Shown here piece by piece: positions 1-20,947 of a stretch of DNA of 64,000 nucleotides. The position numbers and the translations under genes are program-made. The notes under the pieces are model-generated. The model had not been told where the DNA came from, made no database searches, and saw only the letters and a list, made by a program, of their open reading frames with translations. The stretch comes from Cohnella candidum. Lineage in GTDB: Bacteria; Bacillota; Bacilli; Paenibacillales; Paenibacillaceae. The DNA lies in the NCBI RefSeq assembly GCF_003713065.1, contig NZ_CP033433.1, forward strand, positions 310,001 to 374,000, given 5' to 3'. The first letter of the stretch is position 1; each line of letters starts with the position of its first letter.

Positions 1-1
1 A

Positions 2-1183
2 GAATTTGGCTTTTTGATCGTACTCCCGACCTTATTTTTCTTCTATCGATGGATGGTGGAGAAGAAAGAAGCAGATTTTCGGACGGGAGTGGTCGGAGCC
101 GCCGCTGTCGGACTCGTTCATGCCATTGGTTTCGGATTCCTATGGCTCGGTGGGGGAGCGTTGGCTGTCGCTGAATTGTTTCTTCGGCCGAAACCTGGAA
201 TGAAGAGGTTTTTAAAGTGGTTTTTTGCAGGCACGATTTCCGGCGTGATTGCCATTTTGCCTGCTGTCATCGGTTTGGTTGTCGGAAAACATTTTCATGC
301 AAACTCATTGAACTTTACGTTTGAAGAATCACTGGTCGTCCGACCGCCGATCCGAATCATCGATTGGATTGCGCTTTTCTCGGCCGCTTTGTTGTTGGTT
401 TCTTCCTTGAGAGGAAGCTTCGAGAAAAGGTTTGCGGATCTTTTCATTTCGGTTTTCGGTTTCGGTATCTTTATTTTATATGAATTTGTGGGATGGATAA
501 CTCAGAAAGACATGATATCCGCCCGTTCTCCGGATTTATGGGCAATTATGATTCCATTGCTTTGCGGGATGGCAATCGCTCGAATGTTAGGCTGGATCGG
601 AAGTTTTCGTTACAATCAATTCTGCTTCGCAGGGATTTTTTCCCTGGTTTTGATCGCCGGAACCATTGTACATCCACCTAAGCCGATCTTTCCGGATAAA
701 CTGGAAAGCGATGAAGGATTAAATCAATACCTAAGAATTGATCAGTCCTTTACCCCGAAAAGCTGGACTATCGTTTATTCATTCCGCGAAGGAAACAACA
801 TGGTTAGAGGCAGCGGCTATTATATGTATGTGGGGCCCAAAATCGGAGATTTCGACGCACCAACTTATTTTTTAGGAGTTTACGATCCTACAAAACCTGG
901 TCTGACGCGTTATGGCGAAAAAAAGGTAGATACCCGTATCGGGCAAGATGTGTTCATTTTCTACGAGAAGCACGTTTATAAAAACGAAGCGCTTCTGCAA
1001 CTGAAAACGGAAGTCGGAAAGGCCAAAGAGTATAAGACTAGGGAAACTGACATGGTAGAGCTAAAAAAATGGTTGGAACTTTACGAACGGAGCAACGGAA
1101 AGATTGAGGTATACTATGACGGGCCAACTTTAACGGTCTACCACATTCATATTATTGAAAAGTCCAAGCCGGTAAATGAATAG
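2..1183 (+). CDS. Polytopic membrane protein, 5'-truncated by the window edge
   Basis: The frame is open from base 2, with no convincing start or ribosome site, so this is the C-terminal part of a longer protein. The first ~230 residues hold about six to seven hydrophobic segments with short loops. The last ~150 residues are soluble, rich in aromatic and charged residues, and probably lie on one face of the membrane. The layout (multi-TM followed by a soluble tail) resembles GT-C type glycosyltransferases, but I see no diagnostic motif and do not assign a function. It precedes the exopolysaccharide genes in the same orientation, 137 bases from the epimerase, so a role in that pathway is plausible by position only. 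Confidence 0.6.
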   Translation, partial: EFGFLIVLPTLFFFYRWMVEKKEADFRTGVVGAAAVGLVHAIGFGFLWLGGGALAVAELFLRPKPGMKRFLKWFFAGTISGVIAILPAVIGLVVGKHFHANSLNFTFEESLVVRPPIRIIDWIALFSAALLLVSSLRGSFEKRFADLFISVFGFGIFILYEFVGWITQKDMISARSPDLWAIMIPLLCGMAIARMLGWIGSFRYNQFCFAGIFSLVLIAGTIVHPPKPIFPDKLESDEGLNQYLRIDQSFTPKSWTIVYSFREGNNMVRGSGYYMYVGPKIGDFDAPTYFLGVYDPTKPGLTRYGEKKVDTRIGQDVFIFYEKHVYKNEALLQLKTEVGKAKEYKTRETDMVELKKWLELYERSNGKIEVYYDGPTLTVYHIHIIEKSKPVNE

Positions 1184-1320
1184 TCGGGCTTTTCGCACTT
1201 GTGTGCCTAGTATAATGGCGATACAATTTATAGGCATATGGTTCTAGTTCTAATTCTCTAAGTTGGTAACTAAGAACCATTGACGTATTCTATCAATATA
1301 GAGGTTGCGGAGGATGGCTA
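1184..1320 (+). promoter_or_regulatory. Leader of the epimerase gene: -10 candidate and stem-loop
   Basis: A TATAAT box lies at 1211-1216 without a good -35 element. A 12-13 bp stem (ATGGTTCTAGTT at 1238-1249 with AACTAAGAACCAT at 1268-1280, one bulge) follows, with an 18-base loop and no T-run, so it is not an intrinsic terminator. A strong GGAGG at 1309-1313 sets the ATG at 1321. The hairpin could protect or regulate the mRNA; that is inference. Confidence 0.35.
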
Positions 1321-2244
1321 ATGGACATCTTAGTTACCGGCGGGGCAGGATTTATCGGGTCGCATGTGGTTGAGGCGTTGTTGGAAAATGGGCATAACGT
1401 TGCGGTCCTCGACAATTTAAGCAATGGTTTCGCGGATCGTATCCCTTCGGATTCCGTTTTATATGACCTGGACATTTGCGATCCTACAATTTCTCATGTA
1501 TTTCGCCAATTCCGACCCGAAATTGTGGTTCATCTTGCCGCGCAAACAGATGTTGCCGCTTCCGTTGCAAGATTTTCTCTTGATGCTCAGATCAACATCA
1601 TGGGTACGCTGGAGTTATTGCAAAAGTGCGCTGAATTCGGAATACGAAAATTCATCTATGCATCCTCTGCCGCAGTTTACGGGAACCCGAAAAGCTTTTA
1701 CATTTCAGAAGATCACCCGTTACGTCCTATCTCTCCGTACGGCATTTCCAAATATGCCGCCGAGCTCTATGTTCAAAGAGTCGCTGAAGAGCACGGCATC
1801 GACCATACGGTATTACGTTATGCCAATGTGTATGGGGAAAGGCAAGGAGAGAAATCGGAAGGGGGAGTGGTTTCCGGCTTTATTCGGAAGCTGAGAAATC
1901 GTGAAAGGCCGATTATTTTTGGAACCGGTGAGCAAACGAGGGATTTTATATACGTGAAAGACGTAGCAGAAGCGAATGTGGCTGCTTTGACACGGGGATC
2001 GGGAGGGACCTTCAACGTTGGTACAGGGCAACGGACAAGCGTACTCGATCTTCTTCGAAAGTTAGGCGAAGTCACCGGCATCGTTCCCGATCCACTTTAC
2101 GAACCCCCTCGGCTTGGAGACATCCTGCATAACGGTTTGGATATCCGTTTAGCTTCCGAAGAGCTTGGCTGGGCACCTCGGTATTCACTGATTGACGGGT
2201 TGAAACAAACCTATGATCCTTATTTCATCCAATCGCGGATATGA
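1321..2244 (+). CDS. NAD-dependent epimerase/dehydratase (UDP-hexose/HexNAc 4-epimerase type)
   Basis: This 307-residue extended short-chain dehydrogenase begins with the NAD-binding Rossmann motif TGGAGFIGSH and carries SSAAVYG and the catalytic YGISK (Tyr-x-x-x-Lys). The family interconverts nucleotide sugars such as UDP-Glc/UDP-Gal or UDP-GlcNAc/UDP-GalNAc. In pel systems a UDP-GlcNAc C4-epimerase (PelX) supplies GalNAc, so the same job is likely here. The start follows GGAGG by 7 bases; an out-of-frame ATG at 1314 is ignored. Its last 25 bases overlap tail-to-tail with the antisense hydrolase. The exact sugar cannot be read from the sequence. Confidence 0.88.
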   Translation: MDILVTGGAGFIGSHVVEALLENGHNVAVLDNLSNGFADRIPSDSVLYDLDICDPTISHVFRQFRPEIVVHLAAQTDVAASVARFSLDAQINIMGTLELLQKCAEFGIRKFIYASSAAVYGNPKSFYISEDHPLRPISPYGISKYAAELYVQRVAEEHGIDHTVLRYANVYGERQGEKSEGGVVSGFIRKLRNRERPIIFGTGEQTRDFIYVKDVAEANVAALTRGSGGTFNVGTGQRTSVLDLLRKLGEVTGIVPDPLYEPPRLGDILHNGLDIRLASEELGWAPRYSLIDGLKQTYDPYFIQSRI

Positions 2245-3029
2245 TAACTTTCGCTTCGGGTCAAGTGAACGAAGCCAGCATTCTCTGCTTCGGACCTGTG
2301 CTGGCTTAGAGCCGACTCAGAGACGGTGAAAACCGTAATCCCATGATCGATTAGCGACTGTATCTTTTTCATTTGTTTTCGCATCCAAGGGTTTGATTTC
2401 CATTCGCCACTCCAATCTTCCCAGAGAAAGCCGTCCAAAAAGGGTGCGGATTTCGATATGGAACCGAATCCACGATTTTGTATAAGGATTGAAGAGGGCA
2501 AGGCCTCTTTGCACTGGGCCATCCAATGGCCGAATGAGACTACAAGTTCATCGTACAACCCGGCATTGAATGCGAACGTATCGATGTCGTCGACAGTATC
2601 AAGGAAGATGCCATCACAATGTTTGCCATGAATTAGCTCTGCGGCTTCATTCAACAGAACTGAACGGAAATGTGGCTGTCGTATGTCCATGATAAAGGCA
2701 TCCCATTGCTCCAAGTACTGTGATTGTCCGCCGACTTTCATGAAATCTTCGGGTAACAGAAGGTTCCATCGGTCCCGGTTCCATCTGGGACTCTCCATTA
2801 CGCTTAAATAACCGATCACGATAGTTCCATTTTCCTTTAAACCTTGCAGCGCCTCGGGAGCATGGTGATTGGCTTCGACGATGACAAGATCGAAGCTGGA
2901 TAATGCCCGGTAAAGACCTTTATCAGGGGGACCATAGTCGATCATAAACGAATCAACCCTGTTAAGCGGCAGTTTTCGTGGGAACGTCTGACGTCTCCAT
3001 GGCCAAAATCGGAAGCTCATGCGTTTCAT
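2220..3029 (-). CDS. GH114-like hydrolase (endo-alpha-1,4-polygalactosaminidase family)
   Basis: The 269-residue product looks like a TIM-barrel glycosidase of the GH114 / PelA hydrolase type: a GYLSV strand, an acidic DGIFLDTVDD strand end carrying probable catalytic Asp residues, an NRG strand and a DGFLWED segment. PelA hydrolase domains cleave partially deacetylated GalNAc polymers. The start at 3029 is chosen because AAGGTAGG lies directly upstream; the longer frame to 3341 runs into the divergent pelF. No signal peptide or membrane anchor is visible and the PelA deacetylase domain is missing, which is odd for an enzyme expected to act outside the cell. It is transcribed against its neighbours. 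Confidence 0.7.
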   Translation of the reverse strand: MKRMSFRFWPWRRQTFPRKLPLNRVDSFMIDYGPPDKGLYRALSSFDLVIVEANHHAPEALQGLKENGTIVIGYLSVMESPRWNRDRWNLLLPEDFMKVGGQSQYLEQWDAFIMDIRQPHFRSVLLNEAAELIHGKHCDGIFLDTVDDIDTFAFNAGLYDELVVSFGHWMAQCKEALPSSILIQNRGFGSISKSAPFLDGFLWEDWSGEWKSNPWMRKQMKKIQSLIDHGITVFTVSESALSQHRSEAENAGFVHLTRSESYHIRDWMK

Positions 3030-3113
3030 CCTACCTTGTTCGTAACATTTTTGCTGAACTATTATATCATACAAAAATAGTTTGCTTGGAAACTCACGGA
3101 AGCGAAGGTGATA

Positions 3114-4889
3114 ATGGTGCGGAACAATATACGAGTTTTGCTGACTACAGAAGGCACCTATCCTTTCCATCAAGGCGGGGTCAGTACTTGGTGCGACACG
3201 CTGGTGAAAAAGCTTCCTTCCGTTGATTTCATGATATATAGCGTGCTTACGGATCCTTTTGTTACGCAGAAGTATAAACTTCCTAAAAGCAGCGGCTTGA
3301 TCCGAATGCCCCTTTGGGGCACCGAAGAGCCGAGCGAGCATTTAACGGTTCCTTTTGCTCAAGTATACGCAGCAAAACGAAGAACGAATGAGGAAACGGT
3401 TAAAGCACACTTCATTCCACTGTTCATTCAATTAATTCAAGAGATCGTTCGGCCGGACAAGAATCCGCTTCGTTTCTCGGCAACTCTGCTGGATATGTAT
3501 TTGTACTTCCAAGAGTACGAATATAAAAACACATTTAAATCTAAAGCGGTTTGGGATGAGTATAAGGCTTTCATTCTCAATTATTCGGCAGATCCTCGAA
3601 ATCACTTGGCGCAACCTGATGTGTACGGTTTGACCCAAAGTCTCGGGTGGATATATCGATTTTTAAATATCATCAATACGCCGATTCCGAAAGTCGAAGT
3701 CACGCATGCTACGGCAGCTGCTTTTTGCGGAATTCCTTGCGTCATCGCCAAAATGAAGGACAAAACGCCATATCTTCTTACCGAGCATGGTGTTTATTTG
3801 AGGGAACAATATTTATCTTTATCAAAAAGGGAATATTCATCCTTCTTGAACACGATCTTGGTCCGTTTTATCCATAGCATCACCAGCATGAACTATACGA
3901 TGGCTGACCAGGTTTCCCCAGTGTGTGAGTATAACACGCGGTGGGAAAAAACTTTCGGAGTTCCAGACCATCGTCTGAAAGTTATTCACAACGGAGTAGA
4001 TAAGCTGGTGTTTACGGAGGAGGCTCCGCCTCGTAATTCACATCCGACTGTTGTCACTATCGCAAGGATTGATCCGAATAAAGATATCATCAGCTTAATC
4101 CGCTCGGCTTCAGTCGTACGGGAGACGGTGCCGGATGTACGCTTTATAGTCTATGGCTCAATAGCTGTGCCCGAATATTATGAAGAGTGCTTGGAGCTCT
4201 TGAAACGGCTCGGTTTGGAGGAAACTTTCCTCTTTGCTGGACATACGGACAATATGACAGCTGCTTATGCTTCTGCAGATGTGATCGCCCTATCCAGCAC
4301 TTCAGAAGCATTTCCATATTCCGTGGTCGAAGCAATGATGGTCTCCCGTCCAGTCATCGCAACAGACGTCGGAGGCGTCGGGGAGGCATTGGGCGACGCG
4401 GGAATCCTAGTCCCTCCTTGCAATCCGAAGGAGATGGCAAAAGGAATCATCCGCCTTATACAAGATCCGGATCTTCGTTTGGAGATGGGACGGGACGCTA
4501 GACAAAGGGCTTTAAGTTATTTCACGCTGGATAAAGTGCTGGAGTCTTATTTGAAGAGCTATATTATGCTCTCCTTAGGTATCGACTCGGAGCGCCAGGC
4601 GGAAAAAAAAGCTGTGCCGATTCCGCAGAAGCATGTCCCATCGCCTGCTGTCACTCAGCGACTTTATGCAAACCGTGCATACGCCTTAATATCCGTGCAG
4701 CTTGATCGCGAGGCTATTGAACAGTTTCGACTGGCCATACGGGCAAACCCTGCATCACCTTCGGTGCCCGTTCTATATTCGGAAATCGCCGAAGCATATA
4801 ACAGACTGGGCAATCGGGAATTAGCCCTTATTGAATTGGAGAATATGCGCAAGTGGCTGTTCAGAGATAAACGCCATGAGTCCGCATAG
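3114..4889 (+). CDS. pelF: PelF-type GT4 glycosyltransferase with C-terminal TPR-like tail
   Basis: This cytosolic family 4 glycosyltransferase polymerises the exopolysaccharide from UDP-sugars. The N-terminal half has the PelF hallmark TEHGVYLREQ; the donor-binding half has RIDPNKD, then SEAFPYSVVEAM with the E-x7-E type site, and TDVGGVGEA. PelF proteins are usually about 500 residues; this one is 591, the excess being two TPR-like helical pairs in the last ~75 residues. TPR repeats belong to PelE in the classic system, so this may be a PelF-TPR fusion replacing it. GAAGG at 3104-3108 favours the ATG at 3114 over the GTG at 3108. The next gene follows after 17 bases. Confidence 0.88.
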   Translation: MVRNNIRVLLTTEGTYPFHQGGVSTWCDTLVKKLPSVDFMIYSVLTDPFVTQKYKLPKSSGLIRMPLWGTEEPSEHLTVPFAQVYAAKRRTNEETVKAHFIPLFIQLIQEIVRPDKNPLRFSATLLDMYLYFQEYEYKNTFKSKAVWDEYKAFILNYSADPRNHLAQPDVYGLTQSLGWIYRFLNIINTPIPKVEVTHATAAAFCGIPCVIAKMKDKTPYLLTEHGVYLREQYLSLSKREYSSFLNTILVRFIHSITSMNYTMADQVSPVCEYNTRWEKTFGVPDHRLKVIHNGVDKLVFTEEAPPRNSHPTVVTIARIDPNKDIISLIRSASVVRETVPDVRFIVYGSIAVPEYYEECLELLKRLGLEETFLFAGHTDNMTAAYASADVIALSSTSEAFPYSVVEAMMVSRPVIATDVGGVGEALGDAGILVPPCNPKEMAKGIIRLIQDPDLRLEMGRDARQRALSYFTLDKVLESYLKSYIMLSLGIDSERQAEKKAVPIPQKHVPSPAVTQRLYANRAYALISVQLDREAIEQFRLAIRANPASPSVPVLYSEIAEAYNRLGNRELALIELENMRKWLFRDKRHESA

Positions 4890-4906
4890 GAGGGAGGCGA
4901 GGAAAT

Positions 4907-5356
4907 ATGGTGTCCAGACCAATCAGAAGAGGGAGAGGTTTCTGGGGAGACATCGAACGTTACGTGGTTCCTTCCGCATACTCGGATAACCAATATGCGT
5001 ATGTGGCAGCAGACATGGAAACGGTAAAACAACCGCTAAGCAAGTCCGTGATCGCTGAAGCCATTGCTACTCCAGTTATGGCTATCCCGCCTTCGCCGCA
5101 GCCTGTTATCGACGACGATTTGCCTTCGACGGTTTTAAGCGAGGAAAGCGCCGCATTGGCAGAAGATATTCGGCAAATTAAGTATAAGTACATCGTCGGC
5201 AAAATCGCCGGACAGGATTTATCTGGACATGACGGACGCATCCTGGTCCGAAAGAATGAAGTGATTTCAGAAGAACATATAGAACTAGCGGATCGCGAGG
5301 GCAAACTGGCAGACTTAATCGTCTCGATGCGCATCCCGGGGCTGGGCGAGGAGTAA
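4907..5356 (+). CDS. Unknown protein of the exopolysaccharide cluster
   Basis: I do not recognise a family for this 149-residue soluble protein. The first ~30 residues are basic and aromatic, a Pro-rich low-complexity linker follows (about residues 50-75), and the last ~60 residues form a compact module beginning YIVGKIAGQDL and ending in LIVSM, which by eye resembles small barrel or hybrid-motif folds (G-x-aromatic/aliphatic-D-x-x-G pattern). AGGAGGG precedes the ATG. It sits between pelF and the pelG-like gene with only 6 bases before the latter, so it is almost certainly translated with them and may scaffold the synthase complex; that is inference from position. Confidence 0.6.
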   Translation: MVSRPIRRGRGFWGDIERYVVPSAYSDNQYAYVAADMETVKQPLSKSVIAEAIATPVMAIPPSPQPVIDDDLPSTVLSEESAALAEDIRQIKYKYIVGKIAGQDLSGHDGRILVRKNEVISEEHIELADREGKLADLIVSMRIPGLGEE

Positions 5357-5362
5357 GCGCAG

Positions 5363-7009
5363 ATGGTAGTTGCTGAAACGAAATCAGCTGACGGATTCGA
5401 ACAGGAAAAATGGTTGGACGAGTTAATTGAGGAAATTCGTGCTCGTCATTTGCAGCCGGAAGATCGTTATGAAGTGACGGCTATCTTAGAGTCGTTCGGT
5501 TGGAATGATGAAAGGGCGAGGATGGCATTCGGCGTCCAAGATGTCTTCGAATTGGCATCGCTGATATGGGATAAAATGCAGCAAAGTATATTGTTCACTC
5601 CATTTGCACCCATAGAGAAACAAAAATTAGGCCGATTGATCTTTGAAATCATTCAACAATTTTTCCGGGGAATGATCTTTGCTCTGCCGATGGCCGTTTC
5701 TGTTCTTTCGATGCTTACCTTAAAATTTTCGTTATGGTCGTACGAAAATCTCTCAGTTGCCACCGCAACCGCAATCGGCATCGGAACGATCGCCAGCTTT
5801 ATCATTGTCGGTGGATTTACTCAAGCCATCGCGCGGAGGGGTTTTTTCTATATCATGTTGGGCTATTACAATATGGCCCGAAAAATGACTTTTTATTTTA
5901 TCAGATTAGGCTTCCTCGTCTGTATCGGAGTCTGTTTGCTTCTATATGGCGTGAATGTCGTATTTAATTTATTTCCTTATGCAATGATATCGATCGCGAT
6001 ATTATACTTCTTTTTTCTGAACACAATATGGCTATCGGTAACGGTTTACTATATTTTGCGCAAAGAATTGGTTTTTACCTGCTTGATCGTTTTGGGCATA
6101 TTTCTGGTCTGGTTGTTTTTTGACGTATTTAAAATGTCAATTATCGTTTCCCAGCTTATCGCTTTGCTTGTGGTTTCTTTCTTGAGTCTTATGCTCGTTG
6201 CTAAATATTTTAGTGATGCCGAACGGAAAATGGAAAAAGGCATCGCCCCTCAGATGCCTAGAATTTCAATTACTTTATTTTCGACAATGCCCTATTTTAT
6301 TTATGGATTCATATATTTCTCTTTTCTTTTCGTAGACCGCGTGTTCTCTTGGTCTACTCCGGACAGTTTTATCCCGTATATCGTATGGTTTCGCGGTCCC
6401 TATGAAATCGGGCTTGATTTCGCGCTGTTGGTTCTAATCGTTCCGATGGGAATCAGTGAGGTCGTCGTGTCCAAGCTCATCAAAGATATTTATGCGAGCC
6501 AAAAAGGTTATATGGGTACAGAAACAAAGGCAATGAATCAACGTTTTCTCCGAATGTATCTCAAAATGTCCGCCTGGATGGCAGCAATTTCAGTCGTTAG
6601 CGCATTATTATTATACATGACAGCTAAAGCATTTTTCGTTCACCATCCGCAATCGATCGGCTTAACTTTGTTCACGAATCCTACCACGCATTTCGTATTT
6701 CTATGGGGACTGACGGGATACGTGCTTATCGCGTCGGCTCTGCTGAATGCCGTAATATTATTCTCTCTCTCTCAACCAGCATTGGTAGCGAAGGCAATCA
6801 TACCTGCTTTCGGAGTTAACATGATCGTCGGGTTCTTGGCGACGCGATGGGCGCACTTCGGCTTTGGTCACGATATCGGCAATAACCCGGGGTATACGTA
6901 TGCAGTGTTTGGATTGGTTGCAGGAGGAATTTTATTCGTCTGGTTAAGCACGAGAAACGTTTGGAAAGTGCTTAGCGAATTGGATTACTACATGTACGCT
7001 GCGTCATGA
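5363..7009 (+). CDS. pelG: PelG-like polysaccharide export membrane protein
   Basis: The 548-residue protein has a ~95-residue soluble N-terminal region, then about 12 hydrophobic segments, the layout of PelG, a MOP-superfamily flippase-like protein that works with PelF and PelD in the inner membrane. Matches that support this are an FVDRVFSW stretch after the sixth segment and a C-terminal LDYYMY like the LDRLEYE end of PelG. Classical PelG (~455 residues) lacks the long soluble N-terminus. A GAGGAG site at 5348-5353 sets the ATG. It lies immediately after the small unknown gene and 31 bases before the HD-GYP protein. Homology is judged by eye and is moderate. Confidence 0.65.
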   Translation: MVVAETKSADGFEQEKWLDELIEEIRARHLQPEDRYEVTAILESFGWNDERARMAFGVQDVFELASLIWDKMQQSILFTPFAPIEKQKLGRLIFEIIQQFFRGMIFALPMAVSVLSMLTLKFSLWSYENLSVATATAIGIGTIASFIIVGGFTQAIARRGFFYIMLGYYNMARKMTFYFIRLGFLVCIGVCLLLYGVNVVFNLFPYAMISIAILYFFFLNTIWLSVTVYYILRKELVFTCLIVLGIFLVWLFFDVFKMSIIVSQLIALLVVSFLSLMLVAKYFSDAERKMEKGIAPQMPRISITLFSTMPYFIYGFIYFSFLFVDRVFSWSTPDSFIPYIVWFRGPYEIGLDFALLVLIVPMGISEVVVSKLIKDIYASQKGYMGTETKAMNQRFLRMYLKMSAWMAAISVVSALLLYMTAKAFFVHHPQSIGLTLFTNPTTHFVFLWGLTGYVLIASALLNAVILFSLSQPALVAKAIIPAFGVNMIVGFLATRWAHFGFGHDIGNNPGYTYAVFGLVAGGILFVWLSTRNVWKVLSELDYYMYAAS

Positions 7010-7040
7010 ACATTGCAAGAGGCGCAAAGGAGGGATGAGT

Positions 7041-8939
7041 GTGAACATTAGCCGGTTCATCGATCGTGGGGAGCAATGGGCGCTCCAACTTCGGCAGTAT
7101 TTTATGGAACATTTTACACTCGCGGTATTGCTGTTTATCGTGGTTTGCGTGTTATGCCTGGCGGGATTTTGGATAGGAATGACACGCGGAAAACAGTACC
7201 GAAAAGATCTTCAAAAAGTCACAGAATTACTGGGTAACCTGGATGTATCCAAGGGTTTAGAGAAAAACTTGACGATATTTCTTGAAATGGCGTCTGAGTT
7301 TGTTCTTGCCAGAACGTATACATTCTATGTGAAGGACGCCAAAAACGGATGTTACGTCCTGAAAGCGGTTCGCCATCAATCCGTTGATTTTGGAAAGGTC
7401 AAACCGTCTTACAGCGGGTTGACGGGATACCAGAAGGAATCCTATCAACCTCCCGTAACCCTGCCGCTGGATGCATTACCACGCAGGACAGGAATCGTAA
7501 AGGAAGGGGAGGTTCCATTACTTTCTATTCCCCTAAAAAGCGGTACGGGCGTAATACGTATCGCGCCACTCCGATCAGCTTCGGCGAAGGCCAAAAGAGG
7601 GCTCTCCGCTTTTGCGACTTACCTCGAAAAGCTAGTGGACATGCTCATGGAATCGGAAATGCTTAAAATGCAGGCGGAAATCAGCCACCATTCCGTACAG
7701 GCACTAAAAACGATTTCAGATGTGACGTCCGATCATAAAACGACCGTTTCGATCATGCTTGAAACCTTCCTGAGAGCGACCAGTGGAAGATCCGCCGTTT
7801 TCTTGCTGGAAAAACTGGGGTTCCGGCAAGTACAGACCGCTGGGCTCTCCGCCAATGCCGCCATAAAGCTTCAGTCTGTGCTTTCTTACAATGGGTTCGC
7901 ATTGCCAAGAGGGCAAGAAGCAATTGTCGTTTCAAGAGGTGAACCCGATTTTATTCAACTTCCATCCGAATTTACCGAGAATGAGGTCCAATCGGTTGTC
8001 GGAGTTCAGTTGCAAACATCGATTGGAACCGCAATGCTTTTGGTGGGCTACGAGGAGAAAATGAACAAGGAACAGTTAGTCCGCTTCGGCATCGATCAAT
8101 TGATCACGGTCATCAAAAGCATGACCACTGTCCTTGAAAGTCAAGAGCCGCTTCGTCAGCTTTCTTCGGCACATATCCAATTGTTTCACTCCCTCGCGCG
8201 GATGCTGGATGACTCTAGTCCGTATACAGTAGGATATTCGGAGCAAATGAACCGGTATTCCGTTGTTATCGCCCAACAGCTCGGAATGGAGGAAGATGAA
8301 ATTCGAGACGTAGGTTTGGCTGCTTACCTCAGCCATATCGGCGTTATCGGCATCTCCAACGACCTTTATCAAAAAGAGGGCAAATATACGGAGATCGAGT
8401 TTGAAAAGATGAAGTTACATGCTGAAGTAGGAGCCCTAATGGTGGGCGTCACCATTGGTAATCCCCGCGTTGCCGAGTATATTATGCACCATCATGAACG
8501 TATGGACGGCTTCGGTTATCCGAAGGGACTTAAAGGAGAAGAAATCCCTTTGGGTGCCCGGATCATAGCAGTGGTCCAAACATTCCTCGCCAAGATTAAC
8601 GGCCGTAAATCCCGTGATCCTTTACGGTTCGATCAAGCTCTTCACACATTAACGGCGGCAGCGGGGACACAACTCGATCCGCAAGTCGTCACGGCTTTCA
8701 TTCAGTGGTTTAGGGAGAAACAAAAATCGCCGGAAGTCAGGGGACGCTCGTTAGGAACTTGTTGGGAAATGTGCTGTACGCCCGAGAGCATATGTGAAAA
8801 GTGCCCAGCCTATCACGTACCCGAGGTGAATTGCTGGGAAGTCGAAGGTAATCTATGCCGCAATCACGGCAAATCATGTGACACCTGTTTTGTCAAAACG
8901 GAATATTTGACGCGAGAGTATGGAAACAGCGCTTCTTAA
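7041..8939 (+). CDS. Membrane GAF-GAF-degenerate HD-GYP protein with Cys-rich tail (PelD-like position)
   Basis: One transmembrane helix (about residues 27-48) is followed by two GAF-like regions (about 60-205 and 215-370), an HD-GYP domain (380-560) and a tail with nine cysteines including two CWE motifs. HD-GYP enzymes hydrolyse c-di-GMP using a metal centre. Here the ligands are mostly lost: the GHS histidine is Tyr399, the HD pair is Ser431-His432, the following Lys is Val435, and the late Asp is Gln513; only His460 and the H484-H485-E486 / GYP492-494 part remain. It is probably not an enzyme but a nucleotide sensor. PelD also couples GAF with a degenerate signalling domain. The GTG at 7041 lies 7 bases after GGAGG; the ATG at 7035 is too close. 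Confidence 0.8.
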   Translation: MNISRFIDRGEQWALQLRQYFMEHFTLAVLLFIVVCVLCLAGFWIGMTRGKQYRKDLQKVTELLGNLDVSKGLEKNLTIFLEMASEFVLARTYTFYVKDAKNGCYVLKAVRHQSVDFGKVKPSYSGLTGYQKESYQPPVTLPLDALPRRTGIVKEGEVPLLSIPLKSGTGVIRIAPLRSASAKAKRGLSAFATYLEKLVDMLMESEMLKMQAEISHHSVQALKTISDVTSDHKTTVSIMLETFLRATSGRSAVFLLEKLGFRQVQTAGLSANAAIKLQSVLSYNGFALPRGQEAIVVSRGEPDFIQLPSEFTENEVQSVVGVQLQTSIGTAMLLVGYEEKMNKEQLVRFGIDQLITVIKSMTTVLESQEPLRQLSSAHIQLFHSLARMLDDSSPYTVGYSEQMNRYSVVIAQQLGMEEDEIRDVGLAAYLSHIGVIGISNDLYQKEGKYTEIEFEKMKLHAEVGALMVGVTIGNPRVAEYIMHHHERMDGFGYPKGLKGEEIPLGARIIAVVQTFLAKINGRKSRDPLRFDQALHTLTAAAGTQLDPQVVTAFIQWFREKQKSPEVRGRSLGTCWEMCCTPESICEKCPAYHVPEVNCWEVEGNLCRNHGKSCDTCFVKTEYLTREYGNSAS

Positions 8940-8961
8940 TCCACATTTTAGGGGATACCAA

Positions 8962-9684
8962 ATGAAAAAGCTGATTATCATACCCGCCTTTAACGAAGCT
9001 GCGAATATTGGAAAATTGCTAAAGGAACTACGTACCAAGATGAAGGATTTCGACGTAGTAGTCATCAATGACGGATCTATGGACGAGACCTCAGCCGTTT
9101 GCAGAAAGGAACGTACGAAAGTGCTCGATTTGCCCTGCAATCTCGGAATCGGGGGAGCTGTTCAAACCGGTTATCAACATGGGGTTAGCATGGGCTATGA
9201 CGTAATCATCCAAATGGACGGCGACGGTCAACATGACCCTGAATACTTGAAGGCTCTGGTTGCGCCTGTTTTAACCGGAGAAGCCGATATTGTCATTGGA
9301 TCTCGTTTTATGGAGAAGCAGGGTTACCAATCGTCATTTTGGAGAAGGGGAGGCATTCGTTTTTATACCGTGTTGATTCGAATGCTGACTGGGATATCGG
9401 TGTCGGACCCTACTTCGGGTTTTCGCGCCGTGAGTCGAGAAGTAGCAGCATATTTTGCAGTCTCCTACCCCACTGATTATCCTGAACCAGAATCGATTGT
9501 TTCTCTTAACAGGCTTCAATATCGAATCAAGGAAGTTCCAGTGAGAATGAGGGACAGGTCCGGAGGGAAATCGTCGATTCGCGGGGTTAAAACGGTTTAC
9601 TACATGGTCAAAGTTACACTGGCTATCTTAATCGATTTGCTTAAGAGGGAACATGCGGAAAAACGGTATGTTCAGGGGGGGTAA
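8962..9684 (+). CDS. GT2 glycosyltransferase (dolichyl/polyprenyl-phosphate sugar synthase type)
   Basis: The 240-residue protein has the DPM1-like GT-A fold: IIIPAFNEAANIG at the start, VVINDGSMDET, the metal-binding QMDGDGQHDPEY, and DPTSGFRA. Such enzymes transfer a sugar from a nucleotide donor to a polyprenyl phosphate on the cytosolic face. AGGGGA six bases upstream of the ATG at 8962 decides the start. No membrane helix is present; the following DUF2304 protein probably anchors it, a pairing common in bacteria. The three genes from here to 11083 are nearly contiguous and form a cassette appended to the polysaccharide cluster. Confidence 0.88.
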   Translation: MKKLIIIPAFNEAANIGKLLKELRTKMKDFDVVVINDGSMDETSAVCRKERTKVLDLPCNLGIGGAVQTGYQHGVSMGYDVIIQMDGDGQHDPEYLKALVAPVLTGEADIVIGSRFMEKQGYQSSFWRRGGIRFYTVLIRMLTGISVSDPTSGFRAVSREVAAYFAVSYPTDYPEPESIVSLNRLQYRIKEVPVRMRDRSGGKSSIRGVKTVYYMVKVTLAILIDLLKREHAEKRYVQGG

Positions 9685-9689
9685 CCTCG

Positions 9690-10115
9690 ATGGGCCACTT
9701 AAAGCTTCAAATATTTATTTTGATTATATTAGCTGCGAGCAATCTTTATATCGTCAATTCCATTCGTAAAAATATATTGGAATTACGGCATGCGTTGCTG
9801 TGGATTCTCTTAGGCATCACTTTGATCGTTTTCGTGTTTTTTCCGGGAGTGTGGAAGTTTCTTGCCCATTTCTTCGGGATCATCGAACCAGTCAATATGT
9901 TATTCCTGTTTGCCATCTTTATCTTGTTCGCCATTGTTTATGGATTGATGATGGAAACTTCGAAACTTTATAAACGGAATAAAATGATTGCCCAAGAGCT
10001 CGCGAAATTGAAGTATGCCATGGAAAACTGGAATATCGCGGGACAGGAGGCTGCCATTTCGGTGGAGTCCACTCTGGTGAATCACCCGATCTCGCCGGAT
10101 AAGGAGACCCTATGA
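9690..10115 (+). CDS. DUF2304 small membrane protein
   Basis: The 141-residue product has three to four transmembrane segments in its first 90 residues (one N-terminal, one LGITLIVFVFF, one FLFAIFILFAIVYG) and a soluble, helical C-terminal tail starting KLYKRNKMIAQELAKLK. This matches DUF2304, whose members regularly follow a GT2 glycosyltransferase and probably act as its membrane partner. It starts 6 bases after the GT2 stop and its last codons overlap the PAP2 start (ATGA at 10112), so translation of the three genes is coupled. Biochemical function of the family is not established. Confidence 0.8.
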   Translation: MGHLKLQIFILIILAASNLYIVNSIRKNILELRHALLWILLGITLIVFVFFPGVWKFLAHFFGIIEPVNMLFLFAIFILFAIVYGLMMETSKLYKRNKMIAQELAKLKYAMENWNIAGQEAAISVESTLVNHPISPDKETL

Positions 10116-11083
10116 GAAGATTAAAAGCTGTCCTCTTCACTCTTGAATTTCATGAGTGGCTATGTATCCTAATGGTTATGTTTTTGATTGTCCTTTATCA
10201 AACGGGCTTATCGGGATGGGGAATCGGATATTCCATCGCCCATATATGGGAAGAAGGCAGTCCGATCACAAAATTGTTTTTTTTGTTGCTCATTTTGCTC
10301 GGAATCGTGACTCGTTTTCTCACCGCCGGCCCCATCAAAGAATTCGGTTCGTTCCTGTTTCGTATGATGGGAGCGTTCATGGTCATGCTTTTTTGTTTTG
10401 AGTCCGTGATTTACTTCATCGAGGAGCGAAACTTACCTTTACTGGACGTTAGGCTTCTCCAATGGGATGCGTGGTTGTTTGGAGGTAAACAACCTGCTGA
10501 GTGGCTTGAGCCCATTACAACTCCGTTCTTGACTTATATATTGAGCACAGTTTACTTATTGTGGTTTCCCATGGTCTATGGAACCGTTATGTTGATGTAC
10601 ATAAAAGGTAAAAAGGCCGTTGTCGAGTATGTTTGCTTCGCTCTTATGACTTATTATATCGGTTATTTAATTTATTTAATTGTTCCAGGAATCGGTCCCT
10701 TATACGTTTATGATTTTTCCACTCCCATCGGCGGGTTAACCGCGATGATGACCGAAGGCAAGCTGATTCAGCCTGCAGCGGATGTTTTCCCCAGCTTACA
10801 TACGGGAATTTCAGTCGTGATGCTCATTCAAGTTTGGAGAAGATATCGGATTTGGACGTGGGTTTATGGTCCCTTAACAGTATTGATTATTTGCTCAACA
10901 ATATATCTTCGAATTCATTATGCGGTTGATGTATTCGCTGGGATCATTTTATCGATCGCGATTGCCTACCTTTGCCCTTTTGTTTTGCGAAAATGGGAAG
11001 ATGGCAGAAGCAAGATCTCCATGCCAATGAGCACGATTCTTGAATCGGAACATAGCGAGAGATTACAAACGATGGAAGTATAG
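10112..11083 (+). CDS. PAP2-superfamily membrane phosphatase/phosphotransferase
   Basis: The 323-residue polytopic protein shows the PAP2 active-site blocks in its C-terminal third: PSLHTGIS (with the catalytic His) and RIHYAVDVFAG (second His and Asp). The arrangement matches the PAP2_3 / Aur1-like branch, which act on lipid phosphates or transfer phospho-head groups at the membrane. The context, next to a polyprenyl-phosphate sugar synthase, suggests recycling of a lipid carrier or modification of a glycolipid used in polymer assembly. It is the last gene of the AT-rich cluster. Substrate is unknown. Confidence 0.8.
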   Translation: MRRLKAVLFTLEFHEWLCILMVMFLIVLYQTGLSGWGIGYSIAHIWEEGSPITKLFFLLLILLGIVTRFLTAGPIKEFGSFLFRMMGAFMVMLFCFESVIYFIEERNLPLLDVRLLQWDAWLFGGKQPAEWLEPITTPFLTYILSTVYLLWFPMVYGTVMLMYIKGKKAVVEYVCFALMTYYIGYLIYLIVPGIGPLYVYDFSTPIGGLTAMMTEGKLIQPAADVFPSLHTGISVVMLIQVWRRYRIWTWVYGPLTVLIICSTIYLRIHYAVDVFAGIILSIAIAYLCPFVLRKWEDGRSKISMPMSTILESEHSERLQTMEV

Positions 11084-11109
11084 GTATTCGATAAATTTAC
11101 CGCTAAGTA

Positions 11110-17346: not shown

Positions 17347-19215
17347 ATGGACACCGATCAGACGATTTACCGGGACCGGGAGAAAGCGATGGAGAATATC
17401 CGCCATAAGCTGGCGCTGCTTCCGGACCAGCCGGGCTGTTACTTGATGAAAAACAGCGAAGGAACGATCATATACGTCGGCAAGGCCAAAGTGCTGAAAA
17501 ACCGCGTGCGCTCCTATTTCAACGGAAGCCACGACGGCAAAACGCAGAAACTCGTCTCGGAAATCCGGGATTTCGAATATATCGTCACCGCGAGCAACAC
17601 CGAATCGCTCATTTTGGAATGCAACCTGATCAAGCAGCATTATCCCCGATATAACGTGCTGCTCAAGGACGATAAATCGTTTCCTTATTTGAAAATCACG
17701 AACGAGGAGCATCCCCGACTTGAGGTGACGCGGCGGATCGTGAAGGATAAAGCCAAGTATTTCGGCCCCTACCCGAACGCGTTCGCGGCCCAGGAAACGA
17801 AAAAGCTGCTCGACCGCCTGTACCCGCTGCGCAAATGCCGCACGCTGCCGGACAAAGTATGCTTGTACTATCATATGGGCCAATGCCTCGCGCCTTGCGT
17901 GTATCCGGTCGAAAAGCCGGAGTATGAGCGGATGATCGGCGAAATGACGCGTTTTCTGAATGGCGGACACACCGAGATCAAAAAAGAGCTGCAGCGCAAA
18001 ATGGCGGAAGCGGCGGAGGAACTGCAGTTCGAGCGGGCCCGCGAATACCGCGACCAAATCGTTTCGATCGAAGCGCTCATGGAGAAGCAGACGATCAACC
18101 TGCACGACGCGCAGGACCGCGACGTCTTCGGCTATGCCGTGGACAAGGGCTGGATGTGCGTGCAAATCCTCTACATGCGCCAAGGCAAAATGGTGCAGCG
18201 GCACGTTTCGGTGTTTCCCTTCTACGGCGAGGCTTACGACGATTTCCTCAGCTTCGTGACGCAGTATTACAGCGACAACCCGGCGCTGCCGCGCGAGGTG
18301 CTGCTTCCCGCCCGCGACGAGGGCGACGAAGAAGAAGTGGTCGATTCGCTGCACCGCTGGCTGAACATTAAGGTCGCGGTGCCGAAGCGGGGGACGAAAA
18401 AGTCCGTCGTCACGATGGCATGCGACAATGCGCGCGTCGCCCTGGAAGAAAAGTTTAAACTCATCGAACGGGATGAAGAGCGCAGCGTGAAGGCGGCATT
18501 CGGATTGGCGGAGTGGATCGGCATCCCGTCCGCCAGCCGCATCGAGGCGTTCGATAACTCCAACATCCAGGGCACGAATCCCGTGTCGGCGATGGTCGTC
18601 TTCACGGACGGCAAACCCGACAAGAAGGAATACCGGAAGTACAACGTAAAATCGGTGCAGGGACCGGACGACTACGAAACGATGCGCGAAGTCGTGCGGC
18701 GCCGGTACGAGCGGGTGCTGAAGGACGGTCTGGCTTTCCCCGACCTGATCGTAGTCGACGGAGGCCGGGGGCACATCGCGGCGGCGATGGACGTGCTCGT
18801 CAACGAACTGGGCCTCGACATCCCGGTGTGCGGGCTGGCCAAGGACGCCAAGCACCGCACGGCCCAGCTCCTCGTCGGGGATCCGCCCGAAATCGTGCCG
18901 CTTCCGCGGGACAGCCAGGAATTTTACTTGCTTCAGCGGATCCAGGACGAAGTGCACCGTTTCGCGATCACGTTCCACCGCGAGAAACGCGCCAAATCGA
19001 TGATCGCTTCGCGGCTCGACGCGATCCCCGGCATCGGGGAGAAACGGCGCAAACAGCTGCTGCGCCACTTCGGCTCGCTGAAGGCGATCAAGGAAGCCGC
19101 CGTGGAGGATTTTCGCGCGCTCTCTATCGGCGAGGCGCTGGCGCGCCGGATCTTGGACGCGCTGAACGACGACAAACCGGCTGCCGATACGGAATCGGAG
19201 TTTTCACCTTCATAA
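17347..19215 (+). CDS. uvrC: UvrC, excinuclease ABC subunit C
   Basis: UvrC cuts on both sides of a lesion during nucleotide excision repair with UvrA and UvrB. Visible in order: GIY-YIG nuclease ([18 protein letters not shown]), Cys cluster ([21 protein letters not shown]), UVR motif for UvrB contact (about residues 205-240), the RNase H-like second nuclease ([18 protein letters not shown]) and C-terminal helix-hairpin-helix ([18 protein letters not shown]). The length (622) is normal. GGAGG at 17331-17335 allows TTG 17341 or ATG 17347; I chose the ATG. An internal ATG at 17389 is also possible. Confidence 0.96.
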
Positions 19216-19219
19216 GAAG

Positions 19220-19265
19220 AATGGCCTTCGCTTCCCTTAACCGGGAAACGAAGGCCATTTTTTAT
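19220..19265 (+). terminator. Terminator of uvrC
   Basis: AATGGCCTTCG pairs with CGAAGGCCATT (with extra CTTCCC/GGGAA pairing) followed by a T-run to 19263. It lies tail-to-tail with the CPBP gene and may serve both weakly. Confidence 0.88.
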
Positions 19266-20947
19266 TATCCGCTCTTATTCCAACGCCGATGCACCCGGAA
19301 GACCGCGTAAGCGACGGCGGCGGGCAGAATGAAGCCGATCATGCTCGCGGCAGCGTCGCCCGGCAGGCCGTCGAACGCCAGCTGGACGCCCATGAGCACG
19401 GAATCCAGCACGATGTGCGCGAACAGGACGGCGAGGAAGCCGAACCGCAGCAGGAACCATCCGAACAGAAACGCCATGATGATCAACTCGATCAATCGCG
19501 AATAGGCGGGATAGACGGCATAGCCGACATGCCCGAACGCCCAGAACAGCCCCGGAGGGAACATGGCGACCGCCGTCAGTACGGTCGAAGCGCGGGGAGA
19601 CGGCTCACGGCCAAGCAGACGTCTTGCCCCTCCGAGTAGCCAGCTTCGGAAAAGCCCGATGCCGAACAGCCGGCTCTGCAGCTCCTCCGAGATGCCGGCA
19701 CACCACGCCAGAAGGAGCAGAAGCCAGGGGAACGTCATGTTGTAGGAAGATTGGCTGGCGTCGGAAGCCTGGAACATTCCGATTCCGTTCTCCAGCCCGA
19801 CCAGAATGACCGACTGGACTCCGAGCAGGAGGAAGGCGAGCGGATACCCGGTTTTCATCCCGGACATGACCGCTTGGCCGAACCCCGGCTCCCGCCAACG
19901 GGGCCACAGCGGCTTGCCCATCGATCTCCATAGGCCGTCTCCTCCCACGGCGGAAAGGTAAGTAAAGAGTGCCATGCCCGCGAGAACGATGAAATTGGTG
20001 ATGAGGATCGCATGGATCGCCGAGCTGTCCGCATTCTGCCCTTCTTGGAGCAGACCCGCGCGGAAGGCGGGCTGCATGTTCAGATAGAAACTGGTATACA
20101 TCGCCAGAAACGCAACGGCCAAGCCGATGCCGCGCCGGAATGTCGTATATTCCCTTCGGGACGCGGAGTAGATGATCGCCATGATCAGCAAAACCAGTTG
20201 GGGAACGACGAAGCCTAAGGCGTTCAGCTTCACGGCTAATTTCGTCTGCCCGGCCATGTAGTCCGTGAAGCTTTGCGGGATCCGGATCTCGTACGAGACT
20301 TTGCCGTCGCGCCACGGGGGAACGGCTGAGGAAGCGGCGTTGAAGCCGGACGGAGCCGCAACCTTCAGTGCGAGACGGGCATCCGACAAGCCGGCTTTAC
20401 GGGATAGAAAGGTATAGGTACCGGAAACGTCCGCGGGCTCGCCGTTCCATTCCCAATCCCCCGGTTTTTCTCCCCAGAATGCCGCGTAGGCCAAGGCGCG
20501 TTCGGCCCCGGATTTCGGATCCTCGTTCGCGGCGGCCGATGCGGCGGCACGGCTGTCCTGCCACCCGACGAGTTGCCCGGTTTCCATCTGAAGATAAAGC
20601 GTTAATCGTTCCTCTCCATACCGAAGATCGGCCCGATAGACGTCTGTCGGATGCCGGTCGGACCATTCCTTTTTATACTCATCCAGCAGCCCGTATTTCG
20701 AGAAATAGCCGACCGTGTCGCTGTCGGAGAGATGGGTAAGATCCAAGCCCGTCGGTTCTCCGGCGATGCCGAACCGTTCGGCGGCTATTTTCACGGCGGC
20801 TTGCTCGGCCGCCCCGCGGCTTAACGCGTTCCCTGCGTCGCGGTTCCAAAGAAGGGGGAATACTTGAATGAAGAGAAATACGACGAGTCCGATTCCTGCC
20901 GCCCATCCCCATAACGGGTTTGCGGACTTTTGCCCGATTCGGCGCAA
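19265..20947 (-). CDS. CPBP-family intramembrane protease-like protein with extracytoplasmic domain
   Basis: The ~560-residue protein has an N-terminal helix, about 200 soluble residues outside, and seven or more helices. The C-terminal region holds the CPBP (CAAX/Abi) motifs: SEELQSRLFG (Glu-Glu-x3-Arg), FGHVGYAVYP and FAHIVLDSVLMG. The family contains Rce1-type glutamic endopeptidases and membrane proteins of unknown substrate. The GTG at 20953 is only two bases after AAAGGAG, whereas the TTG at 20947 is eight, so I start at 20947. It is transcribed away from the ktr leader. Confidence 0.85.
   Translation of the reverse strand: MRRIGQKSANPLWGWAAGIGLVVFLFIQVFPLLWNRDAGNALSRGAAEQAAVKIAAERFGIAGEPTGLDLTHLSDSDTVGYFSKYGLLDEYKKEWSDRHPTDVYRADLRYGEERLTLYLQMETGQLVGWQDSRAAASAAANEDPKSGAERALAYAAFWGEKPGDWEWNGEPADVSGTYTFLSRKAGLSDARLALKVAAPSGFNAASSAVPPWRDGKVSYEIRIPQSFTDYMAGQTKLAVKLNALGFVVPQLVLLIMAIIYSASRREYTTFRRGIGLAVAFLAMYTSFYLNMQPAFRAGLLQEGQNADSSAIHAILITNFIVLAGMALFTYLSAVGGDGLWRSMGKPLWPRWREPGFGQAVMSGMKTGYPLAFLLLGVQSVILVGLENGIGMFQASDASQSSYNMTFPWLLLLLAWCAGISEELQSRLFGIGLFRSWLLGGARRLLGREPSPRASTVLTAVAMFPPGLFWAFGHVGYAVYPAYSRLIELIIMAFLFGWFLLRFGFLAVLFAHIVLDSVLMGVQLAFDGLPGDAAASMIGFILPAAVAYAVFRVHRRWNKSG

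Follow-up and report, generated by a model that had tools for sequence, protein, structure and literature searches.

We analysed a 64,000-nucleotide stretch of the Cohnella candidum genome (the window), which carries a Pel-like gene cluster with the gene for a degenerate HD-GYP protein downstream of pelG (Table 1). The PelF-like gene is the sole place in the genome above the NF038011 cut-off. The window's PelG-like protein gives no match to the PelG profile PF16933, which 10 of the 16 aligned members match (best E 6.9e-8); judged by these scores, the PelG of this cluster type is divergent. Between the two genes lies a small protein with a conserved C-terminal stretch and longer relatives, which has no Pfam match above cut-off and for which SBHM, a fold name, served as our working label. 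Pfam likewise gives no match for the full 687-aa protein at the left edge. Relatives of the GH114-like reading frame match from about residue 120, so its true start may be internal. Among the ten cluster ORFs scanned with Pfam and NCBIfam, none was recognised as PelD, PelE or a deacetylase; PF16963 has no match in the genome, and the control for that profile was likewise silent in every genome. The cluster of one relative, L061, additionally holds a PF01522 polysaccharide deacetylase, a MurJ-like protein and an ATP-grasp protein, and that of another, L073, an ATP-grasp protein. Three loci (L051, L052 and L053) carry the candidate regulator as two paralogous copies in one cluster.

Table 1 Features of the Pel-like cluster, in window positions; the four domain rows lie within the main CDS
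Feature	Position	Strand	Basis and remarks
C-terminal part of 687-aa protein	14..1183	+	begins beyond the window edge; sister clusters have relatives (L055 5120-7183)
GalE-like sugar epimerase	1321..2244	+	PF01370 3.5e-68; TIGR01179 200.3 bits, under cut-off 262.3
GH114-like glycoside hydrolase	2220..3341	-	PF03537 2.1e-11
PelF-like GT4 glycosyltransferase	3108..4889	+	NF038011 PelF 166.2 bits, cut-off 100
Small conserved protein	4907..5356	+	relative just upstream of pelG in 16/16 regions of the first set
PelG-like membrane protein	5363..7009	+	PF16933 in aligned relatives
Main CDS	7041..8939	+	632 aa from GTG 7041; 634 aa if from ATG 7035
GAF-like domain 1	7257..7574	+	about residues 75-180; model secondary structure, Foldseek to GAF/phytochrome folds
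GAF-like domain 2	7734..8069	+	about residues 234-345; model and Foldseek
Degenerate HD-GYP domain	8166..8729	+	about residues 378-565; Pfam, alignment, Foldseek
Cys-rich tail	8742..8936	+	Cys motif in aligned sequences
GT2 glycosyltransferase	8920..9684	+	PF00535 6.7e-27; true start may be further in
DUF2304 membrane protein	9690..10115	+	PF10066 1.5e-23
PAP2-type membrane protein	10112..11083	+	PF14378 8.5e-16

The window cluster resembles the Gram-positive pelDEA(DA)FG operon (PMC7112168) in its PelF and PelG-like cores and in having galE and a polymer hydrolase nearby, and differs from it in that no PelD, PelE or deacetylase was recognised and in its GT2, DUF2304 and PAP2 accessories. A first-pass annotation of this DNA had put the HD-GYP gene in the PelD position. 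This cannot be taken literally: the gene is placed after pelG, whereas in the Bacillus cereus order pelD-E-A(DA)-F-G it is pelD that comes first (PMC7112168). The likeness to PelD of Pseudomonas aeruginosa and B. cereus (PMC7112168) is one of function: a predicted membrane segment and a GAF-type domain would be joined to a c-di-GMP-turnover domain that has gone dead, in a protein whose gene accompanies those of PelF and PelG. PelD uses the I-site (RxxD) of a degenerate GGDEF domain, whereas neither GGDEF nor PelD_GGDEF is matched by Pfam within the window protein.

The main reading frame is intact. By its Shine-Dalgarno spacing, AAAGGAGGG at 7026-7034 favours GTG 7041 over the upstream ATG 7035, so numbering from GTG = 1 is the likelier one and is used for all residues below; the GAF-like and HD-GYP boundaries in Table 1 are in ATG numbering (+2). 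Pfam recognises HD_5 (E 7.7e-35) and HD (E 4.5e-06) in the protein. An AlphaFold model computed from 15 aligned sequences (mean pLDDT 80.1, pTM 0.69) shows, in order, an N-terminal membrane-type helix, a first GAF-like domain, a long helix, a second GAF-like domain, the HD-GYP domain and the Cys-rich tail. Foldseek matched the front part of the model to GAF folds, and Pfam GAF_3 appears weakly in 4 of 15 members (best E 0.034). For the HD-GYP part, PmGH (4mcw) was the best match by E-value, with TM scores by target of 0.76-0.77 for DvhD (9rbz, 0.77) and 0.71-0.73 for PA4781. PmGH and other active HD-GYP phosphodiesterases (PMC4159591) have the same GAF-helix-HD-GYP layout. That a complete catalytic HD-GYP might sit in another part of the protein was rejected, as Pfam gives a single HD_5 match region.

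Eight residues, E185, H189, H221, D222, H250, H276, H277 and D305, are given as the metal ligands of PmGH (PMC4159591). Aligned to them, the window protein has, in the same order, Y395, Y399, S431, H432, H460, H484, H485 and Q513. Five of the eight ligands are thus replaced, and what is kept are three His (H460 at the H250 position, H484 and H485). Elsewhere in the site, S393 stands at D183, V435 at K225 and L516 at D308, so that, unlike PmGH, the window protein has lost most of the metal site together with the catalytic Lys. The HHE-x2-DG-x-GYP motif is intact (residues 484-494, with Y493 as the GYP Tyr), and the substrate-loop Arg are retained as R522 (R314 of PmGH) and R525 (at the K317 position). 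The first-pass annotation had read Tyr399, Ser431-His432, Val435 and Gln513 in place of the GHS, HD, K and late Asp ligands, next to an intact HHE-GYP part, and alignment to PmGH, where these positions are H189, H221-D222, K225 and D305, gives the same picture. Its residues were right; its list of metal ligands was not, in that K225 of PmGH is a second-shell catalytic residue outside the eight (PMC4159591).

The consequences of these replacements can be gauged from the PmGH mutants (PMC4159591). Apart from those at E185 and D305, every alanine change of a ligand essentially abolishes activity, and D183A, K225A and D308A act similarly, with activity abolished or nearly so. Because H189, H221, D222, K225 and D308, each needed in PmGH, are all changed here, loss of catalysis in the window protein is strongly supported by the alignment, more broadly than had first been noted, and c-di-GMP hydrolysis by it appears very unlikely. 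Alanine at R314, K317 or Y285 does not much lower catalysis in PmGH (PMC4159591), and conservation of these residues is therefore no proof of nucleotide binding. Tyr at the E185 position is described as common across the HD-GYP family and occurs in 7 of the 15 other HD-GYP rows of this genome; taken by itself, its presence carries little weight. At these 15 places (one row incomplete), H221 is kept in 13, D222 in 14, D305 in 13 and H189 in 12, and K225 in only 9. Among the HD-GYPs of this genome, Lys loss is not rare and HD loss is. That HD loss might simply be usual in this genome could be ruled out on the same counts for H221 and D222.

To place the window protein in its family, we aligned 48 sequences from Bacillota, the window's included. 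Identical duplicates were removed, near-identical pairs were counted separately, the L040 row lacks its first residue, the ortholog in genome G085 was left out, and the counts exclude one fragment truncated at the end of its locus. HD is lost in 38 of the 48, with the metal site recoded in much the same way: the H221 position is Ser in 33, Ala in 4 and Asn in 1; D222 is Asn (34) or His (4); K225 is Val (23), Met (4) or another residue (11); D305 is Gln (36) or Glu (2); D308 is Leu (36), Ile (1) or Met (1); and at H189 Tyr stands in 31, with His retained in 3. A recoding shared by 38 of 48 sequences is more than chance. In the remaining ten, H189 and HD are retained and the D305 position holds D (6) or E (4); all of them carry Met at K225 and Asn or Val at D308. 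H250, H276 and H277 are invariant in all 48, as is Arg at the R314 and K317 positions, and the GYP Tyr is present in 47. The invariant His trio, and the ten relatives that keep H189 and HD with Met at K225, could be taken to mean that the protein is still an enzyme, whose trio holds one metal and supports slow hydrolysis. Against this stand the five changed positions at which alanine all but removes PmGH activity (PMC4159591), and we regard residual catalysis as highly improbable.

Phylogenetic analysis recovered all 48 sequences as one clade relative to 13 other rows (support 100/99) and the 38 recoded sequences as one clade nested within the ten (support 100/99). When the eight recoded columns were masked, the single-loss clade was still in the best tree, with support of 73/91 and presence in 70% of bootstrap trees; neither tree includes 4r8z or five paralog rows of the own genome, four of them long-branched and one incomplete, while an earlier tree was built without 4r8z and a single paralog. 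Read from the tree, the order of steps would begin with Lys to Met, with the caveat that Lys is also missing in several other HD-GYPs of the own genome. In four pairs of relatives, the window gene not being among them, dN/dS of the HD domain was 0.014, 0.162, 0.038 and 0.181, below the full-length value in each. Such values indicate that the recoding is maintained and is not decay.

The gene is rare and closely tied to pelG. Its N-terminal part was found in 1 of 37 genomes of the genus, the window's own, and in 14 of 392 genomes of the order, and all 18 gene copies from those 14 genomes lie within <=20 kb of pelG. A search of the genus found neither the N-terminal part nor pelG in any of its 36 other genomes, and GC content is about 45% over the cluster (1-11100) versus about 57% downstream; on these two grounds the cluster was probably acquired by horizontal transfer. 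Foreign origin might also mean that the gene has been decaying since its transfer and is functionless in this strain, and the deacetylase, MurJ-like and ATP-grasp genes of L061 and L073 are indeed not seen in the window cluster. The intact reading frame, the recoding shared by 38 sequences and the low dN/dS in the four relative pairs speak against decay, which we consider very improbable.

We extended the linkage analysis by scanning genome contigs for PelG; a related-locus search with a single PelG sequence had returned nothing. Of the 42 loci obtained, 26 had the HD-GYP protein within the stretch extracted around PelG, and in two of these it runs off the stretch end. Genome-wide searches for 14 loci (the two cut ones and twelve without) found it for nine and not for five at E 1e-45, giving an HD-GYP protein in 33 of the 42 PelG loci. 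Four of these nine finds share an extracted stretch with pelG. The other five are each next to DUF2304 in stretches that lack pelG, four of which are short contigs taken whole and one the first 10 kb of a long contig. Among the nine remaining loci, L070, L073, L077 and L080 have the GAF1 part fused to GH114 and L085 has no match, and the short contigs L064, L088, L096 and L097 lack the protein in the stretch extracted. In an even draw of 398 Bacillota genomes at E 1e-12, the N-terminal part occurred in 5 and this pelG type in 8. All five are among the eight and have both genes on one and the same contig; in the four besides the window genome, the distance between the two starts is 6.8 to 13.5 kb; the other three of the eight pelG genomes gave no N-terminal-part match at this threshold. 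By hand arithmetic, with the window genome excluded and under an assumption of independence that is not quite true, the chance of four out of four falling within 7 of 397 genomes is about 3e-8.

A close precedent is DvhD of Desulfovibrio vulgaris (PDB 9RBZ, 9RC0), which has SQ in place of HD. Its PAS/HD-GYP fragment binds c-di-GMP at ~99 nM but does not hydrolyse it, and no metal was seen in it (PMC13090378, 2026). Both proteins have an HD-GYP fold without the HD dyad (SQ in DvhD, SH in the window protein, SN in most relatives) and keep the GYP Tyr and the Arg of the R-x-x-R loop, and both appear to be biofilm-related membrane proteins with a cytosolic sensor domain ahead of HD-GYP. They differ in the His pair, which is lost in DvhD (Met-Asn) and kept here, and in the H189 and K225 equivalents, which are kept in DvhD and lost here. 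DvhD moreover has dCache and PAS domains where the window protein has GAFs, and it controls an adhesin protease, not a polymer. Mapping the nucleotide contacts by our own indexing of the 491-701 construct of DvhD, with E668 outside the mapping, we found Y523, Y621, R650 and R653 matched in the window protein, and L577 replaced by Tyr, K582 by Phe, M646 by Lys and Y652 by Ser524 (Tyr in 37 of 48). DvhD falls outside the 48-sequence clade on a long branch, and its HD loss looks separate from that of this family. A dead HD-GYP receptor as a kind is known, published in 2026 (PMC13090378). The first-pass annotation had proposed that the window protein realises the PelD principle with the other c-di-GMP domain family; the functional idea is sound, but gene order and the GGDEF domain differ from PelD, and the idea is already in print for adhesin control.

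An Rfam scan of 40 loci yielded a c-di-GMP riboswitch in four. The L061 element (3977-4061) is of class I and precedes galE by ~320 bases and pelF by 2.5 kb. That of L073 (6608-6691; Priestia abyssalis) is of class II, 53 bases before pelF, and the sole class II match in its genome. The L086 element (3244-3327), also of class II, is more loosely linked, ~4.4 kb before pelF with other genes between, and the fourth, in L094, is situated past the genes of the cluster. For the window's own cluster (L055), the scan of the surrounding 20 kb gave no Rfam riboswitch. The genome of the window has 25 GGDEF matches and 7 c-di-GMP-I riboswitches. We considered that a riboswitch might replace the receptor, which fits L073, where the family has no match at E 1e-45 and a class II element precedes pelF. 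This was set aside: L070, L077 and L080 have neither receptor nor riboswitch, and the L061 and L086 genomes have both.

The same data bear on the identity of the ligand. DvhD also takes 3'3'-cGAMP, at ~501 nM (PMC13090378), and several of its contacts differ here, so the pocket might accept another dinucleotide, 3'3'-cGAMP or pGpG, in place of c-di-GMP. The 25 GGDEF matches, if specific for c-di-GMP, the 7 c-di-GMP-I riboswitches and the riboswitches of the sister clusters argue for c-di-GMP, and we consider a different ligand decidedly unlikely.

In the tail, a strict Cys motif was present in 27 of 35 sequences and then in 8 of 13 later ones, with a looser motif in all 13 of the later set; the tail is absent from several complete relatives (L043, L067, L076 and the group L091/L092/L094). 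The Cys-rich tail is possibly a metal, Fe-S or redox site. That the tail is a known 'two-CW' motif was considered and set aside, with no such NCBIfam match, no PDB match and none found in the literature. L053 (5201-7768) carries a fusion of the GH114-like and HD-GYP proteins. In the Bacillaceae-type loci L070, L073, L077 and L080, the N-terminal helix and GAF1 stand ahead of GH114 and HD-GYP is replaced (L073 fusion at 18153-19556), and these four genomes have no match of the HD-GYP family at E 1e-45. Because it is fused to GAF, the GH114-like enzyme would be cytosolic, provided that the GAF domain is. The ortholog in G085 (L104 643-2289) has lost the HHE-GYP stretch, gives no GAF1 match and retains the Cys tail.

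Together, the G085 ortholog and the four GH114 genomes imply that the pocket is not needed everywhere, which makes a tail- or GAF-led role a live rival. The dead HD-GYP would then bind no nucleotide and serve for dimerisation or for docking of, say, PelF/PelG or a GGDEF partner, with sensing left to the GAF domains and the Cys tail. Such a role would suit the retention of the tail where HHE-GYP is lost, the four relatives that drop HD-GYP entirely and the wide spread of the Cys motif, as well as the best NCBIfam match of the protein, which is to the NosR family (124.8 bits, under the cut-off of 400). It also has parallels in RpfG, whose GYP motif serves complex formation (PMC4159591), and in degenerate HD-GYP proteins said to work via other c-di-GMP enzymes (PMC12570481). 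Against it stand the pocket residues (three His, the Tyr and two Arg), which hardly vary or do not vary at all across the 48 sequences, and the c-di-GMP riboswitches ahead of three sister clusters. On balance we hold a role without nucleotide to be unlikely, though well worth keeping in mind.

Our preferred reading, to which we assign a probability of about 0.62, is that the window protein is a dead HD-GYP repurposed as a membrane-anchored c-di-GMP receptor that acts on PelF-PelG of a Pel-like polymer. The N-terminal helix would anchor the protein in the membrane, and c-di-GMP would sit in the pocket, where the two Arg of the loop and the Tyr of GYP would grip it. Filling of the pocket would rearrange the HD-GYP dimer and the long helices toward the GAF domains, which in turn would switch polymer synthesis or export, most likely through the PelF-PelG machinery of a Pel-like (galactosamine-type) polymer. 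The sequences themselves establish the loss of the site, its conserved state, the linkage and the ancestry. Binding without hydrolysis, the first-pass interpretation, is plausible and in part supported, being suggested here by the analogy with DvhD and by residue conservation; membrane topology, direction of control, partner and polymer identity are likewise what we infer. We favour the receptor reading on account of the loss of five of eight ligands and the Lys, the conserved pocket, the low dN/dS, the pelG linkage, the riboswitches, the GGDEF count and the DvhD precedent. Counted against it are the differing DvhD contacts, the loss in G085, the four GH114 genomes, the missing riboswitch at the window cluster, the mild PmGH mutants and the 3 of 8 pelG genomes without the N-terminal part.

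A bolder proposal, which we offer tentatively and would not expect to hold in full, is a Bacillota-wide two-input switch. One membrane protein might combine two inputs, the dead c-di-GMP pocket and the Cys-rich tail as a metal, Fe-S or redox site, and steer both PelF-PelG synthesis and a cytosolic GH114-like trimming enzyme, the passage from enzyme to receptor being traceable within one family (Lys to Met, then loss of HD, H189 and D305).

The literature listings and text passages searched contained no description of an HD-GYP protein in a Pel locus. As far as searched, the lineage appears to be new, and so do its setting in a polymer locus, its Cys tail and the gradation of forms between metal-bearing and recoded sites; from DvhD the lineage is set apart by its locus, the residues kept, the tail and its ties to a GH114-like hydrolase. 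Control of Pel by c-di-GMP is known through the dead GGDEF domain of PelD. If our reading is correct, a second c-di-GMP domain would have been disarmed to serve this purpose in polymer loci of Gram-positive bacteria, in an event apparently independent of that in DvhD. The family would also offer naturally occurring HD-GYPs ranging from metal-bearing to recoded, on which the order of steps is testable. The Cys-rich tail and the probably cytosolic polymer hydrolase would then be unexplored parts of polymer control.
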